Shown here: one piece after another, positions 7,052-64,000 of the stretch | Layout of the letters: the number at the start of each line of letters is the position of its first letter | Numbering within the stretch: the stretch's first letter is position 1 | From: Planctomycetota bacterium | Lineage (GTDB): Bacteria > Planctomycetota > MHYJ01 > WSZJ01 | NCBI GenBank assembly: GCA_009773755.1 | Contig: WSZJ01000037.1 | Coordinates: 1 to 64,000, forward strand | Length of the DNA stretch: 64,000 nt | Reading direction: 5' to 3' | Position numbers and translations under genes: made by a program | The notes under the pieces: model-generated | Told to the model about the DNA's origin: nothing | What the model saw: only the letters and a program-made list of their open reading frames with translations | The model's database searches: none

Positions 7052-7852
7052 ATGCGTATTCTCACCGCCACCGCACTTTTGTTCCTCGCGGCCCTCGCCA
7101 CCGCCGACGTCACGTTCACCGAGAAGGCCAAGGTCACGACGAGCTCCATTCTGAGAGCCAACGACAGCCGCGCTACCACCACCAACGCCGCTTCGATCAA
7201 GGGACGCAAGATGAAGCTCGCGGCCACGGATGACGCCGCCAAACCCACCAGGGTGTTCATCTTCGACGGCGAAAAGACTCTTCAGCGGGACACTTTCCCG
7301 CGCAAGGAAACTTACGGCGAAGTCACGGCCGAGGGCTTCACAAACCGGGTCGATGCCGCGAAGAAGCGCGTCGAGGACTTTGAGACCAAGGTCGAATCGC
7401 TCACGGGCGACAAGCAGGCGCGCATGAGCAACTACATCTGGCATACGAAGAAAGTGCTCGGGCTTCTGACACAGACGCCGAGTGTGGAGCTGAAGCGTAC
7501 GGGCGAGAAGCAGAAGATCGGGGAATGGGACTGCGAACGGATCGTCATCACGGAAGAAAACGCGAAGGGCGAGATGGAAACCGTTTTTGACTGCTGGATG
7601 ACGGAGCAGCTCGAGGGATGGAACGCGTATCTCGATTTCTATGCCGCCTACCGGGCGTTCAGCCCTGCGGTGCTGGAGAAAATGAGGGAGCTCAAGGGAT
7701 TCCACGTGAAGGGGACCTTTATTCCCTACTATTTCGACGGCGACGCCTTCCTCGAGACCAACGAAGTCGACAACAGCGACGTGAAGAAGGTGGACCTGGC
7801 GGCTGCGGAATTCGAAGTGCCCGCGAACTACAAGAACACGACGAAGAAGTAA
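7052..7852 (+). CDS. secreted hypothetical protein (DUF4412-like layout)
   Basis: Signal peptide MRILTATALLFLAALATADVTF followed by a soluble domain. Confidence 0.82.
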   Translation: MRILTATALLFLAALATADVTFTEKAKVTTSSILRANDSRATTTNAASIKGRKMKLAATDDAAKPTRVFIFDGEKTLQRDTFPRKETYGEVTAEGFTNRVDAAKKRVEDFETKVESLTGDKQARMSNYIWHTKKVLGLLTQTPSVELKRTGEKQKIGEWDCERIVITEENAKGEMETVFDCWMTEQLEGWNAYLDFYAAYRAFSPAVLEKMRELKGFHVKGTFIPYYFDGDAFLETNEVDNSDVKKVDLAAAEFEVPANYKNTTKK

Positions 7853-11234: not shown

Positions 11235-12776
11235 ATGGCGGCCCGGGGGAAACCCTTCAGCATCCTCGCCCCCCTCCTTTTCGTCGGCCTCGCCGCCGGC
11301 TTCGTCGGCCTCTACTTTGTTCGCCACTCGCAACCTCCCGCGCCGGCGACGCCCCCGGACCCCCGCGCCGGCCAGATCGCCGCTTCCCTCGAGGCCGCCG
11401 ATAATGCGGAGAAAGCCGGACAGTGGGAGCTGGCCCGCAAGGCGCTCGAGCGCGCGGTCGCGCTGGATACGGGGAATGCCGTCCTGAAAGGAAGGCTCGA
11501 GGAAGCGGTCGAGGAGGAGAAGCGCGCCATGTTGATCGCGGAAGCCGCTGAAGCGAGGAAGGCGGGCGACCCGACGGCAGAGGCGGCGAAGCTGGAGGAA
11601 GCCCGGCGGATCCGGGAGGCGAGCGATCTGCGCGGCCGGCAGGCTGCGGCGGAATTGACGGCCGCGGTGCAGCGCGCGCAGGCGGCGGAGAAGGACGGCT
11701 GCGTGCCCCTGGCGATCGAATCCTGGCGACAGGTTTCCACGGCCGCGGAGAATCGCGATGCGAAGGAGTATTTCGCCGCGCATCCTTCGGAAGCCGTGCA
11801 GGACGCGGCAGCGGACGCCGTCGCGAAGCGGCTCGCGGCGCTTCAGGCGCGGCTTGACGACGGAGAAAAGTCGGATCTGGCGAAGCGGGCCGAGGGGCTG
11901 GCGCGGGAGGGGGTGACCGCGAAGTCTGAGGGCCGCATGACGACGGCGATCGCGAAGCTGAAGGAGGCGATCGGGCTGGAGGCGAGGGAGGAGTGGAAGA
12001 AAGCGCTGGAAGAAACGCAGGCGTACGTGACGGACAGCGAGAAGTTTCTCGACGAGGCCTTGAAGCTGTACGAGAAAAAGGAGTGGCGGGAGACCCGCGA
12101 AAAGCTCGAGTTGGCGCTCTCGTTGAACAAGGAATGCGCCGCCGCGGCGAAGCTGCTCCCCGAGGTGAAGGCGGCGGCGGTGCGCAGGGGGATGCTGGCG
12201 GTCCCTGCGGCGACGGTCGTCGCCGCCGGCACGGAGTCGAAAGTGAAGGCGTTCTATATCGACCCGACCGAAGTCTCGGAGGCCCAGTACTGCACGTACC
12301 TTCGCGCGGAAGGCCAGCCGGTGCCGATGCGCTGGCGCAACACCGGCAAGCCCGAGGGCGATGGCTCGCTTCCCATAATGGGGATCAGCGCGAAGGAAGC
12401 GGCGTCGTACGCGGCGTGGGCGGGAAAGCGGCTTCCGACGGAATCGGAGTGGCTGGCCGCAGCCGGTGCCGGCGACGGCCGGGCCTATCCGTGGGGAGCG
12501 GATTGGGACGCCGCGAAGGCGAACGCGAAGTCGCCCGCGCCGTGGGCGTGCGGCTCGAATGCCGCAGGCGCGAGCCCCTGCGGCGCGCGGGACATGGCGG
12601 GAAACGTCGCCGAATGGACCTCCACCACTGATAACGGCAAACGCGTCGCGAAAGGCGGCAGTTTCCTCTTCCCCGAATCTTCCTGCGCCCTCACGTGGCG
12701 CTGGCTTGAAGACGACGATCTCGGATTTCCCGGGATCGGGTTTCGATGCGCGGCGGACGGCGATGAAGAAAAGTGA
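11235..12776 (+). CDS. membrane-anchored formylglycine-generating-enzyme/SUMF1-domain protein with TPR/coiled region
   Basis: N-terminal TM; VKAFYIDPTEVSEAQYCTYL, GKRLPTESEWLAAAG, YPWGADW, ARDMAGNVAEWTST, GGSF, GFRCA. Confidence 0.9.
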   Translation: MAARGKPFSILAPLLFVGLAAGFVGLYFVRHSQPPAPATPPDPRAGQIAASLEAADNAEKAGQWELARKALERAVALDTGNAVLKGRLEEAVEEEKRAMLIAEAAEARKAGDPTAEAAKLEEARRIREASDLRGRQAAAELTAAVQRAQAAEKDGCVPLAIESWRQVSTAAENRDAKEYFAAHPSEAVQDAAADAVAKRLAALQARLDDGEKSDLAKRAEGLAREGVTAKSEGRMTTAIAKLKEAIGLEAREEWKKALEETQAYVTDSEKFLDEALKLYEKKEWRETREKLELALSLNKECAAAAKLLPEVKAAAVRRGMLAVPAATVVAAGTESKVKAFYIDPTEVSEAQYCTYLRAEGQPVPMRWRNTGKPEGDGSLPIMGISAKEAASYAAWAGKRLPTESEWLAAAGAGDGRAYPWGADWDAAKANAKSPAPWACGSNAAGASPCGARDMAGNVAEWTSTTDNGKRVAKGGSFLFPESSCALTWRWLEDDDLGFPGIGFRCAADGDEEK

Positions 12777-13386
12777 GCTTCCGGTAGCGACGCCGCCGCC
12801 GGCCGCGGAAGCGGGCGGGGATGCGGACCTGATCCGTCGCGCGCAGCGCGGGGACGGCGACGCGTACGGGCAACTCGTCGTGAAGTACCAGGACCTCGTC
12901 TACAACGCGGTCTTCCGGATGGTGAACCGGGAGGACCAGGCGGCGGACATCGCGCAGGAGGCGTTCGTGAAAGGGTGGCGCGCGCTGGGGAGCTTCGAGG
13001 GGCGCGCGCAATTCGGGACCTGGATTTACCGGATCGCCATCAACGCGTGCATCAGCGACCGGCGCGGGCTGAAGCGGCGAAAGGCAACGAGCCTGAACAG
13101 CGCGATGAGCGGAGGCGAGGACGGCGAAGGCGGGATGGATGTCGCGGACGACGCGCCGGAGCCTGTGGAGCAGCTGGTGGACAACGAAAAGGTGAGGCTG
13201 GTGCAGGAAGCGATCGGCGAGTTGGAGCACGAGTTCAGGACGATGATCGTGCTGAGGGACATGGAGGGGCGGCCGTACGAGGAGATCGCGGAGGTGCTGG
13301 AAGTGCCTGTCGGGACGGTGAGAAGCCGACTGCACAGGGCGAGGCAGGCTCTGAAGGACAAGTTGAAAACCAAGCTGGAGAAGTAG
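12763..13386 (+). CDS. RNA polymerase sigma-70 factor, ECF subfamily
   Basis: DLIRRAQRGDGDAYGQLVVKYQDLVYN...AADIAQEAFVKGWRAL...YEEIAEVLEVPVGTVRSRLHRARQALK. Confidence 0.95.
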   Translation: MKKSELPVATPPPAAEAGGDADLIRRAQRGDGDAYGQLVVKYQDLVYNAVFRMVNREDQAADIAQEAFVKGWRALGSFEGRAQFGTWIYRIAINACISDRRGLKRRKATSLNSAMSGGEDGEGGMDVADDAPEPVEQLVDNEKVRLVQEAIGELEHEFRTMIVLRDMEGRPYEEIAEVLEVPVGTVRSRLHRARQALKDKLKTKLEK

Positions 13387-19158: not shown

Positions 19159-20327
19159 AGAAACTCACGGTCCTGATTTCGGCCGCCCTGCTCTGCGGCT
19201 GCGCCGTCGACACCGTCAAGCTGCGCGTCACCGTCCCGGCTAAGACGCGCATCGTCGGCGTGCGAGGCGTGGCCGTCGGTGGGTTCAAAGCCGAAAATCT
19301 CGACGCGTGGCAGGCGAACGCCGAGGGCGCGGGCTGGAACAGGCACCGGCTGCCGGGAAGCGACCTCCGCGCGATTTCCGACGGCGTGAAGAACGACCTG
19401 CTCGGCAAGCTCGCCGAGACGCCTTTCTACTCGGTCATGGACCTCGAGGGGCAGGAGAAGATCTTCGACATGGACGGGCTGGCCGGTCTCGTCGGCCAGC
19501 CGACGTTCAAGCCGGGGACGGTGGATGCGCTGATCTTCGGCCGCTGCTGGGTCGGGTACCTAGAGGCCGACGGCGTGAAGCACGAAAAGGTCACCCTCGA
19601 GGACTGGGACTACCGTGGCCCGGAGGCGCGCATCACGGCGTCGCGCGAAGAGCTTGTCGCCTCCGATTACAAAACCGCTTCGGCTGTCCTCGTCGTCCAG
19701 TACACCGCGGTCCGTTTCAGGCCACGGCTTGAAATCCTCTTCGTCACCACTACTGTGCAGTCGCTTCGACAGGACGAGGGCGGAGGGATGGTGATTTCGA
19801 AGACCCGTGGCGGCGCGTTTGGCATGGGGGGCGGGTTCGGCGGCGGCGGACGGGAAGGGAAGTCGGAATCGACCGGGTCGAAACCCGCCGGCGGCACCGT
19901 CCCGCTCGCGCTTGAGGTATTCAGCTACCTGTCGCACGAGGCCGCCAACGGATTCGTGGAGCAGATCAGCCCGACGACGACCGAAATCGAGATCGAGGTT
20001 GCCGACGGCGACAAGACCTCGGCCAACCTGATTCGCGCGGGGGCCTATCGCGAAGCGTCGAGGCTGCTCCGGCAGATCACGCAGAACCAGAAGCAGGGGA
20101 CCCGGGCGTACAAGAAAACCGAAGACCGCGCGCCGGACTTGTACAACCTCGGGCTGGCCTGGGAGGCGCAGGGCCCCGCGTATTACGAGGACGCCATCAT
20201 CGCGTACCGGAAGGCCGTGGAGTCCGATCCGGAGACGGTCTTCTTCGCTTCGGGCCTTGGGCGTATCGCGAGGCTTCTGGAGGGGACGAACCTGATCGAA
20301 TTGCAGAAGGGAGCTCGCAATGAATAG
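19155..20327 (+). CDS. TPR-containing lipoprotein, tandem family member B
   Basis: MKKLTVLISAALLCGCAVD lipobox; DRAPDLYNLGLAWEAQG. Confidence 0.85.
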   Translation: MKKLTVLISAALLCGCAVDTVKLRVTVPAKTRIVGVRGVAVGGFKAENLDAWQANAEGAGWNRHRLPGSDLRAISDGVKNDLLGKLAETPFYSVMDLEGQEKIFDMDGLAGLVGQPTFKPGTVDALIFGRCWVGYLEADGVKHEKVTLEDWDYRGPEARITASREELVASDYKTASAVLVVQYTAVRFRPRLEILFVTTTVQSLRQDEGGGMVISKTRGGAFGMGGGFGGGGREGKSESTGSKPAGGTVPLALEVFSYLSHEAANGFVEQISPTTTEIEIEVADGDKTSANLIRAGAYREASRLLRQITQNQKQGTRAYKKTEDRAPDLYNLGLAWEAQGPAYYEDAIIAYRKAVESDPETVFFASGLGRIARLLEGTNLIELQKGARNE

Positions 20328-59696: not shown

Positions 59697-59913
59697 CCGG
59701 CGGATTCCCGAATTCGGCGAGTCATTCGTAGGTTTTTCATACGCAACGATTTCGCTGCAAAGTCCGGCGGTAAAACAGGTTGAGCGAATATCGCTGTCCG
59801 AACAACATTCCTCCGCAACCGGGGTTTTATTCCTGCCATTGACGCGCCTGCCCTTCGCAGGCTCAAATCCGCGCCCAACCATCAAGACCCGCAGGGGAGA
59901 AAAGGGAGAGAAC

Positions 59914-61305
59914 ATGAAGAACTTTGCCTTCGGCCTTGCCGCCGTCGCCCTCCTCGCCGCCGCCGCTTCCACAGCGCGCGCCGACGACTGGGACAAGCTT
60001 GGGACGCGCATCGTCGCGTTCGGAGCGGAGAAAGACACGATCGACTGCACGGGAGACGGGAGATTCTCGGCGATCAAGATCGACGTGGATGAGGGAAATC
60101 TGGAGATGTACGACCTGAAGATCACGTTCGGAAACGGCGATCCGTTTTCGCCCGGAACGCGCTACGAGTTCAACGAAGGAACGCGCAGCCGCACGATCTA
60201 CCTGCCGGGCGACGCGCGCAACATCAAGAAGATCGAGTTCTGGTACCGGTCGAAGTTCAAGAAGGGGCGCGCGACCGTGACGGTGTTCGGGAAGCGCGCG
60301 GGCGGCGGAGGCGGCGGGACGGAAGAGCCTCGCCCGCCGGTGAAGGATCCGCCGGCCGACAACGACAAGGGCTGGGAACTGCTCGGCTTGCGCATCGTCG
60401 ACTTCGGAGCCGACAAGGACACGATCGATGTGACGGCCAGCGAGGGGAAATTCAAGCAGATCAAGATCGACGTCGAGCAGGGCAGCGTCGACATGTGGAA
60501 CATCAAGGTCACCTTCGGGAACGACGAGCATTTCTCACCCGAGACGCGCATCGAATTCCGGCAGGGGTCGATGAGCCGGACGATCGATCTCCCGGGCGAA
60601 GCGCGCGTGATCCGCAAGATCGAGTTCTGGTACAAGTCTGAAATCAAGAACGGCAAGGCGCGCGTCCGCCTCTACGGCAAGCAGGCCGGCGGCGGCGGCG
60701 ACGCGAACGAGGCAAAGGAAAAGTGGGAGGACATGTGGAACATCCGCGTGACCTTCGGAGACGGGACCAACCACTCGCCGGACACGCGCCTCGAATTCCG
60801 CCAGGGATCGATGAGCCGCACGATCGATCTCCCCGGCGAAGCTCGTGTCATCCGCAAGATCGAGTTCTTGTACAAATCCGAATTCAAGAAGGGCAAGGCG
60901 ACGCTGCACGTCTTCGGCCGCCACGCGGCAGGCGGCGGCGGCGAGGTAAAGCCCCCGGTCAAGGAGCCGAAGGACCGCTTCCCCGGCTGGGAGCACCTCG
61001 GGTCGCGCGTCGTTAATTTCGGCGGCGACCACGACACGCTCGATTGTCGCGGCGAGGGAAAATTCAGCTCTTTCCAGATCGAGGTGGAAAACGGCGATCT
61101 CGAGATTTTCGACGTCGTTGTCACCTTCGGCAACGGAGAAACCCAGTCGCCGAAAACCCGGCTTTACTTCGACGACAACAACCGCACGCGCCTCATCGAC
61201 CTGCCCGGCAAGGACCGCTTCGTCAAGAAAATCGAGTTCTACTACAAGTCGGTGAAGGCGACCAAAGACGGCAGGGCGACGATCAACGTCTACGGAAAGC
61301 GCTAG
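59914..61305 (+). CDS. secreted multi-repeat protein, four DUF2541-like domains (third truncated)
   Basis: Signal peptide MKNFAFGLAAVALLAAAASTARA; repeats W[DE].LG.R[IV]V.FG...D.[IL][DC]...G.F..[IF][KQ]I[DE]V. Confidence 0.88.
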   Translation: MKNFAFGLAAVALLAAAASTARADDWDKLGTRIVAFGAEKDTIDCTGDGRFSAIKIDVDEGNLEMYDLKITFGNGDPFSPGTRYEFNEGTRSRTIYLPGDARNIKKIEFWYRSKFKKGRATVTVFGKRAGGGGGGTEEPRPPVKDPPADNDKGWELLGLRIVDFGADKDTIDVTASEGKFKQIKIDVEQGSVDMWNIKVTFGNDEHFSPETRIEFRQGSMSRTIDLPGEARVIRKIEFWYKSEIKNGKARVRLYGKQAGGGGDANEAKEKWEDMWNIRVTFGDGTNHSPDTRLEFRQGSMSRTIDLPGEARVIRKIEFLYKSEFKKGKATLHVFGRHAAGGGGEVKPPVKEPKDRFPGWEHLGSRVVNFGGDHDTLDCRGEGKFSSFQIEVENGDLEIFDVVVTFGNGETQSPKTRLYFDDNNRTRLIDLPGKDRFVKKIEFYYKSVKATKDGRATINVYGKR

Positions 61306-61378: not shown

Positions 61379-62179
61379 GTGCACCCTCGAGTGTCCGAGG
61401 TCCTCGCCGGATTTGCGGCGCCGCTCGGCCTGATCGCGGAAGCGTCCGCCGGTGACCTCGCGCGGCTGGAGGCTCTGGTCGGTCCGATCCCGGAACCCTG
61501 GGCGGAGTTCCTTCGCGGCGCAGGCGCTTCAACCGGCAACCTGCGTCTTCGAGGTCAGCACACGGATCTCGGTCTTTCGCTCGCCGAAGACGTGTTGCCG
61601 GTGCTGGAGAAAAAGCGAAAGAAGGAAGCGGCGAAGGGGCTGAAGCTGGCGCCGGTCGCAGCCTCCCGATTCATGATTGCGATGCCGCGCGGCACCTGCC
61701 AGGACTGCGGACCGGTCTGGCTTGAACTGGAAGGCGGGTTGCTTCCGGCCGCGATCCGCAAGGGGCTGGAAGAAGCGGGATCGCACGAAGCCGCCGTGGT
61801 GCAGGTCGACGAAGGCGGGCCGCGCGGAAAACGGTCTCCGGCGCCTGCCTTCGTGCTCGGCGAATCGCTCGCGGCATGGCTCTTCGATGCCGCGTTTCGC
61901 CAGTTCCGGCTCGCCGCCGCCGGGCCTCCGCAACGCCGTTCCGTCCGCCCCGAACACGCCGCGGCGCCGCGTTCGCTTCTCGAATCCCTCGGCCGTGCCG
62001 CCATCGCCGAGGGTTTCCGTAGGCACGAACTGTCCCGCTTTGTCCTGACGTCTCACTTCACGCGCAACGACGCCGCCGCAGTCTTCGCGTGGAACGGCAA
62101 CGCCGTCGAAGTCGTTTTCGCCGCCCGCACCCCTGCTCTTGCATCGCGTCTGGGCGTCGCGCTGGCGCGTCCCCACTGA
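61379..62179 (+). CDS. hypothetical protein (SMI1/KNR4-like N-terminus)
   Basis: LARLEALVGPIPEPWAEFLRGAGASTGNL...; GTG start. Confidence 0.75.
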   Translation: MHPRVSEVLAGFAAPLGLIAEASAGDLARLEALVGPIPEPWAEFLRGAGASTGNLRLRGQHTDLGLSLAEDVLPVLEKKRKKEAAKGLKLAPVAASRFMIAMPRGTCQDCGPVWLELEGGLLPAAIRKGLEEAGSHEAAVVQVDEGGPRGKRSPAPAFVLGESLAAWLFDAAFRQFRLAAAGPPQRRSVRPEHAAAPRSLLESLGRAAIAEGFRRHELSRFVLTSHFTRNDAAAVFAWNGNAVEVVFAARTPALASRLGVALARPH

Positions 62180-62201
62180 CCACGCCCGACATGATTCCCG
62201 A

Positions 62202-62243
62202 TACCCCCAGCAGGATTTGAACCTGCGACCATCGGTTTAGAAA
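62202..62243 (-). other. truncated tRNA-Arg(UCU) 3' half; candidate attachment site of an integrated element
   Basis: Minus strand TTTCTAAACCGATGGTCGCAGGTTCAAATCCTGCTGGGGGTA: anticodon loop with UCU, variable loop, T-arm GCAGG-TTCAAAT-CCTGC, acceptor 3' strand; no matching 5' half. Confidence 0.8.
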
Positions 62244-62399
62244 TGGATTTCCCCTCGGGGCGAAAGGCCCCCGTCCCGAGGGAAGGGCGCAAGTCGGCGC
62301 AAGTCGTCCGAGCCACTTGCAGGCACGCGAAGGCCCCCGTAGAGGCCCCCGAAGTCTCGCCTGTGGAATCGCACCGCTCGACGTAGAATTCTCAACGGC

Positions 62400-63527
62400 G
62401 TGGCTGATCCCCGCGCCAGTCCCGGACGTGCGGCGAGCCCGTCTCCACCGGGCCGCCGCCGTCCGCTTTCGGGAGTGGAGCCCGTGAAGAAAAAGAAACT
62501 GTCCGCGAGCGAGCGGCGATTCCGTCTCGGCGTGATGCTCCCGCAGGCCCGACGCGAGAAATACACAAGTTATTCCCTCATGGCAGATGTCTACAATCTG
62601 CACCGTCGCGCCCGAGAGAAGAGGCCGCTGACGCGACCTGCGGAGGGGCTCGCCGCGCATCCTCTCGCCCGTGAGGCCGCGTTTTGTCTCGACGCGATGA
62701 AGGGCTTGCCGCACGCCGACCCCGAACGCATCGGCCTACATCAGAAAAGCATGCTCCCTTGGGCTTCGTCTTGTGATCTGCTCGGCCATTGGGCAAAACA
62801 GGGCTTCGGGTTGACCGGGAACCACGGGAACAGACACTTCCTACTCCGCGACTTGCTACAGCTTGTCTCGCGATCCATCGCCCCGTTGCGCGTGCGCACC
62901 CTTGCCGCCGCCGCCGGGCTCGCCGTCGTGAGCGAGTGGCCGGACCGGCTGACGATGACCTCATTCCCGGACTTCGTGGAAAGCGTGAAGGCGCTTGGCC
63001 ACGCTGACCTGGCCCGTATCGCCGAGGGACTCTATGACGGCAGTTTCGATCCGGCTTCGGGACCGGATCGGGAATCGGCGCTCGCGGCGATTCGAGCGGT
63101 TCGCGTTCCTGATCGCGGTTTCTCTCAACCTTCGCGTGGTATCTCGGAAGGCCCTGACTTGCATTCTGGGAAGGCCATAATCAAGGCTCTCGGACTTTCG
63201 GGAAAGGTGACGTGGAAAGAGTTTCGCATCCGACACGAGAACGACTCCGCGTGTCCCGTTTCATGGGCGAAAGGACCCGGGAAGAAGCCGCTCGCCAATG
63301 CCGAAGCGGTAAGAAGGTGGCATGTGGGATTGCTCAGGGCGGCGGGAGTCTCCTCTGATCCATGGGCCGCGTCGCCGGAAGACGACCGCGCCTTGAACAA
63401 CCCCATACCTTGGGGGAAAGGGGAAGTGATACCGGACGGCAAGCGACTCGATTCGCTTTCAATTCGTTCTCATCCGGTGAAGAACGTAACCAAGCAGGCA
63501 CGACCGGCGAACTTGGACGAAAAATGA
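62400..63527 (+). CDS. hypothetical protein, element cargo
   Basis: 375-aa open frame with GTG start; no family recognised. Confidence 0.7.
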   Translation: MADPRASPGRAASPSPPGRRRPLSGVEPVKKKKLSASERRFRLGVMLPQARREKYTSYSLMADVYNLHRRAREKRPLTRPAEGLAAHPLAREAAFCLDAMKGLPHADPERIGLHQKSMLPWASSCDLLGHWAKQGFGLTGNHGNRHFLLRDLLQLVSRSIAPLRVRTLAAAAGLAVVSEWPDRLTMTSFPDFVESVKALGHADLARIAEGLYDGSFDPASGPDRESALAAIRAVRVPDRGFSQPSRGISEGPDLHSGKAIIKALGLSGKVTWKEFRIRHENDSACPVSWAKGPGKKPLANAEAVRRWHVGLLRAAGVSSDPWAASPEDDRALNNPIPWGKGEVIPDGKRLDSLSIRSHPVKNVTKQARPANLDEK

Positions 63528-63613
63528 CGACTTAGACGAACTTGGCCCGGCGACGCGGAACTCCATGGATTTAGGGGGAGCGCCCGCAACCACCGCTCCT
63601 CACTGGAGGCGCG

Positions 63614-63826
63614 ATGGATGTCACAAGGCCGGGACTTACCCTTCCCCAAGTCTGCCGATGCGTCGGCATCACGCGGGCTCGGGCCGAAAGACTTCTCTTC
63701 GTCTACCGGGACCGGCTTCCGGTCCCCGTGCGCGTTGGCATCACGCGCCTATGGCCGCCTGAAGTCGCCGATCAAGTCCGCATGATCGTGGCGGAAGAAG
63801 ACCGGCTTCGGGAGGCGGCCCGATGA
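63614..63826 (+). CDS. small HTH protein (MerR/excisionase-like)
   Basis: LTLPQVCRCVGITRARAERLLFVYRDRLPVPVRVGITRLWPPEVADQVRMIV. Confidence 0.65.
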   Translation: MDVTRPGLTLPQVCRCVGITRARAERLLFVYRDRLPVPVRVGITRLWPPEVADQVRMIVAEEDRLREAAR

Positions 63827-64000
63827 ATTACCTCACTCCCGCCGAAGTTGCCGACCGGCTCCGGCTCCACGTCGTTTCCGTCCGCGCGATGCTGGCCGCC
63901 GGAAGGCTCGGGGCCGCCGTCAAGATTGGGCGAGTGTGGAGGCTCCCGGAAGACGAGTTGCAACGTGCGGTAGAACGGATGCGCGTCACGCCTCCCTGCT
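63823..64000 (+). CDS. excisionase-family HTH DNA-binding protein (partial)
   Basis: MNYLTPAEVADRLRLHVVSVRAMLAAGRLGAAVKIGRVWRLPEDELQRAVERM; ATGA overlap with the previous gene. Confidence 0.8.
   Translation, partial: MNYLTPAEVADRLRLHVVSVRAMLAAGRLGAAVKIGRVWRLPEDELQRAVERMRVTPPC

Follow-up and report, generated by a model that had tools for sequence, protein, structure and literature searches.

How half a tRNA gene comes to lie alone close to the end of a DNA sequence from an uncultured planctomycete is the question raised by this locus. The sequence analyzed (hereafter the window) is 64,000 nucleotides long and represents contig C4:1-64000 of a Planctomycetota assembly of 5.78 Mb that is 88% complete, so that window and contig coordinates are identical; the region beyond it was read on L003 (C4:60001-80000). 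At 62202-62243, the minus strand has the sequence TTTCTAAACCGATGGTCGCAGGTTCAAATCCTGCTGGGGGTA. This 42-nt segment is the 3' part of a tRNA; it starts at position 32 in the anticodon loop, ends with the discriminator base and corresponds in BLAST to positions 33-74 of a 74-nt tRNA. No complete tRNA is detected in the window by ARAGORN, and therefore the 5' half is absent at this position, as the initial annotation had read from the sequence. In Rfam, the fragment scores below the tRNA cut-off and also scores weakly as an unrelated plastid element, both of which are expected because the fragment is half a tRNA.

The missing half is found beyond the window. A 37-nt probe allowed up to 3 mismatches locates two sites in the whole 5.78-Mb assembly, the distal fragment and C4:69870-69906, on the same strand. 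The two sites belong to a perfect direct repeat (45/45 bp; 62199-62243 and C4:69866-69910) with a spacing of 7,667 bp, which is the longest exact direct repeat of the region. The shared segment of 42 nt described in the initial annotation is thus real and perfect, but its true length is 45 bp: the tRNA-Arg(UCU) sequence from the anticodon loop to the 3' end plus 3 bp. The second copy lies within an intact minus-strand tRNA-Arg(UCU) gene (C4:69869-69942), and the copy at 62199-62243 on the minus strand is the distal attachment core with the displaced 3' part of this tRNA. As predicted from the geometry, the element extends rightward with the complete gene on its far side. The loop sequence TTTTCTAAACC of the intact tRNA is present at a single place in the assembly, and the rebuilt gene thus appears to be the only tRNA-Arg(UCU) gene there. 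A gene for a tyrosine integrase of 380 amino acids (C4:68631-69773; PF00589, E 3e-26; PHROG 1, E 7e-68), for which a search to the right of the window had been proposed, adjoins the intact tRNA gene at a distance of 95 bp.

These features are those used by Islander to recognize islands in tRNA genes (tDNAs): a complete tDNA and, on the same contig, a partial copy of it at 45/45 identity, an integrase gene within the interval, a 3' fragment that lies downstream of the tDNA on the same minus strand and reaches the tDNA end, a length of 7,667 bp within the range of 2-200 kb and a fragment outside any conserved coding domain. The feature is an ordinary tDNA genomic island with crossover in the anticodon loop. 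Taken as a whole, the locus is almost certainly best explained as a 7.67-kb integrative element that its integrase inserted by recombination between attP and the anticodon loop of tRNA-Arg(UCU).

An empty site in relatives is a supporting feature rather than an Islander filter, and it was also found when three congeneric genomes (G001, G003 and G004) were compared at tRNA-Arg(UCU). G001 retains both flanks with nothing inserted, in the order DUF2541-repeat gene (window 59839-61305), tRNA-Arg(UCU), M29 peptidase gene and tRNA-His. In G003, the left flank is kept and the 48-61 kb part of the window is collinear as far as tRNA-Arg(UCU). G004 retains both flanks, and about 200 bp beside its tRNA contain a stretch of 25 codons similar to the C-terminal end of the integrase (L065:11332-11480; 48% identity; E 0.02 within that locus) together with a repeat pair of 12-bp period; this small relic is best read, from its sequence, as what remains of an earlier element at this tRNA. 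The relic also suggests repeated use of the tRNA-Arg(UCU) site. With a second core copy, an integrase gene and empty sites in congeners, the initial reading as the distal att scar of a tyrosine-integrase island is supported, and the outcome that the initial annotation had named as its refutation, with no second copy nearby, continuous synteny in relatives and no integrase genes, is excluded. The half tRNA could also have been an isolated pseudogene or a chance duplication instead of an att scar. No evidence in support of this reading was found, and it is refuted because an intact tRNA in the same orientation contains an exact second copy, an integrase gene lies between the copies and the congeners have empty sites. 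We give it practically no credence.

The tRNA genes also bear on the source of the integrated element. The acceptor pair A7-U66 of tRNA-Arg(UCU) in the host genome is G-C in the closest congener, and U66 is common to the displaced copy and the element copy. This shared base points to a close relative of the host as the probable source of the element, or to homogenisation of the element copy with that of the host. A G1-U72 acceptor end is found on tRNA-Arg(UCU) in 4 of the 4 congeneric genomes examined (C4:69869-69942; L062, L064 and L065). Outside the element, a 266-aa ORF (window 61379-62179) separates the DUF2541-repeat gene from the distal att site, with the distal fragment beginning about 20 bp beyond its end. 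Pfam gives no match for this ORF, and nothing matching it is found at the equivalent position in three congeners; it is possibly a separate gain or a piece of an older insertion.

The part of the element within the window (62244-64000) runs on to C4:69865, 5.9 kb past the window end. Its first gene (62400-63527, plus strand) encodes a 375-aa orphan without match in Pfam, PHROG, NCBIfam or PADLOC and with one weak relative among about 290 Planctomycetota genomes. It is followed on the same strand by a gene for a 70-aa protein (63614-63826) with a marginal helix-turn-helix (HTH) match (PHROG 686, E 0.09), which overlaps by 4 nt a downstream gene for an 85-aa protein of the HTH_17/excisionase family (C4:63823-64080, of which 63823-64000 are in the window; plus strand; PF12728, E 1e-11; TIGR01764 above cut-off). 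The latter protein is a candidate excisionase. The orphan ORFs and excisionase-type HTH genes described for the right flank are thus present. Further to the right are genes for a 71-aa protein (C4:64077-64292), a 701-aa primase/AAA_25 protein (C4:64292-66397; PF13481, E 7e-37; PHROG 239 DNA primase/helicase, E 6e-26) that combines AAA_25 with a weak DnaG Zn-ribbon, a TubC_N protein (C4:66394-66648), a second HTH_17 protein (C4:66652-66906), a 156-aa orphan (C4:66893-67363), two minus-strand ORFs (C4:67398-67763 and 67768-68232) and a ribbon-helix-helix (RHH) protein (C4:68432-68638) whose gene overlaps that of the integrase by 8 nt. Integrase residues R210, K237, H311, R314, H337 and Y346 are invariant across six family members and form a complete catalytic set. 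No relaxase, terminase or capsid/structural gene was recognized among the element ORFs with Pfam, PHROGs and NCBIfam, and PADLOC, whose matches were limited to weak primase and ATPase-like ones, detected no defence system. The GC content of the element (63.9%) is similar to that of the host (65.2%, with 7.7-kb windows ranging over 62.4-67.5%), and composition therefore adds no support to the island reading.

Related integrases occur in 13 of the 392 Planctomycetota genomes scanned, host included (E < 1e-40), and the closest named records, on which the phylum assignment of the host rests, are Planctomycetota metagenome-assembled genomes. A second element in the same genome (contig C137, L061:7097-16096) is 8.93 kb long and lies inside tRNA-Phe(GAA) with a 44-bp perfect core; its integrase is 57% identical to that of the tRNA-Arg element, and it also encodes three HTH_17 proteins, a PrimPol-AAA_25 protein, a serine recombinase and an RHH-like protein whose gene overlaps the integrase gene. 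A weak HicA-like cargo gene is found close to its distal end. In G005, an 11-kb element in tRNA-Ser(UGA) is delimited by an exact 3' tRNA fragment, as is a 7.9-kb element in tRNA-Sec of G063; in other genomes, related integrases adjoin tRNA-Arg(CCU), tRNA-Ser(CGA) and another tRNA-Sec.

Several further loci were observed during this comparison. Two tRNA-Arg(CCU) 3' fragments in G073 (L066:2729-2771 and 7476-7518) precede an intact gene (12755-12831) in steps of about 5 kb and resemble a tandem island array, in which none of the six larger ORFs scanned matched an integrase and one encodes a PD-(D/E)XK nuclease. In G048, integrase ORFs extend over the tRNA-Arg gene or over a fragment of it (L068:10437-11969 and L074:4586-6355), which may be likened to Mx8-type elements, where the integrase gene overlaps attP. 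A 38-bp exact repeat in G001 (L112:9291-9332 and 19549-19620; about 10.3 kb apart) covers the 5' portion of tRNA-Cys, anticodon loop included, and adjoins a distant relative of the integrase of the tRNA-Arg element, making the locus a candidate for an island of the rarer type marked by a 5' fragment.

Just inside both ends of the tRNA-Arg element is its second longest exact repeat, TCGGGGGCCTCTACGGGGGCC, which contains a tandem GGGGGCC pair of 12-bp period. The distal copy is on the minus strand at 62332-62352, 88 nt from the distal core, and the exact proximal copy is on the same strand at C4:69823-69843, 22 nt inside the proximal core. A third, single GGGGGCC is located between the pair and the distal core (62266-62272, minus strand), and the proximal end likewise has a third copy. 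The repeats were also considered as terminator stems, an explanation that was rejected because the two ends carry them on one strand and as direct rather than inverted copies. Comparable repeats are found in the sister elements, with AGGGGGGCCTAGAGGGGGGCCA at 62 and 85 nt in the tRNA-Phe element, a tandem AGTATGCC pair at each end of the tRNA-Ser element and GCCACC pairs at each end of the tRNA-Sec element. The motif thus varies from one element to the next but is shared by both ends of any one element, a pattern expected of integrase arm-type sites, and we propose the end repeats as candidate sites of this type. A 12-bp-period pair with an exact match of at least 8 nt is present at 12 of 14 ends, compared with 3.1% of 160-nt windows drawn at random from these loci, in a test for which the motif was first noticed in two of the tested elements, some single ends were assigned by adjacency alone and a 10-bp-period pair was equal or stronger at two ends. 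One of the remaining two ends has a 6-nt match; the other (L102, the integrase end beside tRNA-Met) has a match of only 5 nt and no 12-bp pair.

These comparisons raise the prospect, which we regard as evenly balanced, that the elements form an undescribed Planctomycetota family of small elements whose integrases moved among Arg-UCU, Arg-CCU, Phe, Ser and Sec tRNA genes while the arm-site architecture, a tandem pair of 12-bp period at both ends, was kept and its sequence changed with each element. If so, the family would be a natural series for reading the arm specificity of the integrase N-terminus from sequence. A keyword search of the available literature returned no report of such elements in Planctomycetota. 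With the tRNA-Arg element, this phylum gains a mobile element whose boundaries are exact and for which an empty site serves as control; the sister elements provide paired ends at different tRNA genes for tests of how integrase target and arm specificity change, and their exact boundaries help to annotate orphan genes as mobile rather than chromosomal.

Insertion into a tRNA gene that is rebuilt at the far end is a common integration route of bacterial genomic islands, encountered here in a little-studied group. In the mechanism we propose, the integrase recombined attP of the element with the anticodon loop of the host tRNA-Arg(UCU) gene. The element brings its own copy of the tRNA 3' half, so that the complete gene came to lie at the integrase-proximal end (C4:69869-69942) and the 3' half of the host was displaced to the distal end (62199-62243). 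The integrase N-terminus may bind the tandem GGGGGCC pairs just inside both ends, and the core would be where its catalytic domain acts. An excisionase role may fall to one of the HTH_17 proteins, and the primase-AAA_25 protein may prime or replicate the circle after excision.

The way in which the element passes from cell to cell is a separate matter from its status as a tRNA-gene island, and three explanations were considered. It may be a defective remnant that is no longer able to move: many of its ORFs are orphans, and congener G004 has the apparent decayed relic at the same tRNA. Such decay is unlikely, given that no internal stop interrupts the integrase, primase or HTH frames and that the two cores have remained identical; the element may still be mobile today. 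Primase and HTH_17 genes, both present here, are common in mobilizable integrative elements that borrow the transfer machinery of a helper plasmid or ICE, and the RHH gene next to the integrase gene of the sister tRNA-Phe element weakly resembles NikA (PF21983, E 1.6e-5, below cut-off). However, no relaxase, coupling or type IV secretion family was found among the element ORFs with Pfam, NCBIfam and PHROGs, and we consider mobilization of this kind to be similarly improbable. Somewhat better placed, though still tentative, is the explanation that the element is a phage satellite that is excised with an HTH_17/AlpA-type regulator, replicates with a primase of its own and depends on a helper phage for packaging. 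Its size of 7.7 kb, its set of integrase, HTH_17 and primase genes and its lack of structural genes resemble minimal satellites. Against this, no terminase, capsid-remodelling or packaging gene was recognized, no helper was identified, and a scan of viral contigs with the integrase alignment returned distant integrases only (best 35% identity) and no phage relative. No significant terminase, portal, capsid or tail gene marks the element as a prophage either.

Among known systems, the PICI/PICMI satellites are similar in small size, integrase, AlpA-like regulator and primase (PMC10803314). In the PICMI model, PF12728 is used for AlpA in addition to PF05930, and the prototype has a small gene overlapping the integrase gene, as does the tRNA-Arg element with its RHH gene (PMC10803314). 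The element differs from them in its primase, which is of the AAA_25 type with a weak DnaG Zn-ribbon instead of DUF3987/DUF5906, in its insertion in tRNA-Arg rather than next to fis and in showing no signs of a helper phage or of packaging. Lambda and Tn916 are also arm-type integrase systems. For IntS of ICEMlSymR7A, attP has several arm motifs that flank the core and are bound by the integrase N-terminal domain, which is the known arrangement (PMC11963761) and the one to which the repeats described here are similar. Unlike in these three systems, the candidate arm motif here is a tandem pair of 12-bp period with a sequence that varies by element. Closest of all are the islands compiled by Islander, 3,760 of 3,919 of which have a 3' fragment and 2,083 of 3,919 of which use the anticodon subsite (subsite A), the larger subsite class (PMC4383910). 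The tRNA-Arg element shares with them the intact tDNA, the displaced 3' fragment of the same orientation, the tyrosine integrase in between and a length within their range; its mechanism is no different, and what sets it apart from the well-studied cases is its host phylum, the Planctomycetota, and its mostly orphan genes.
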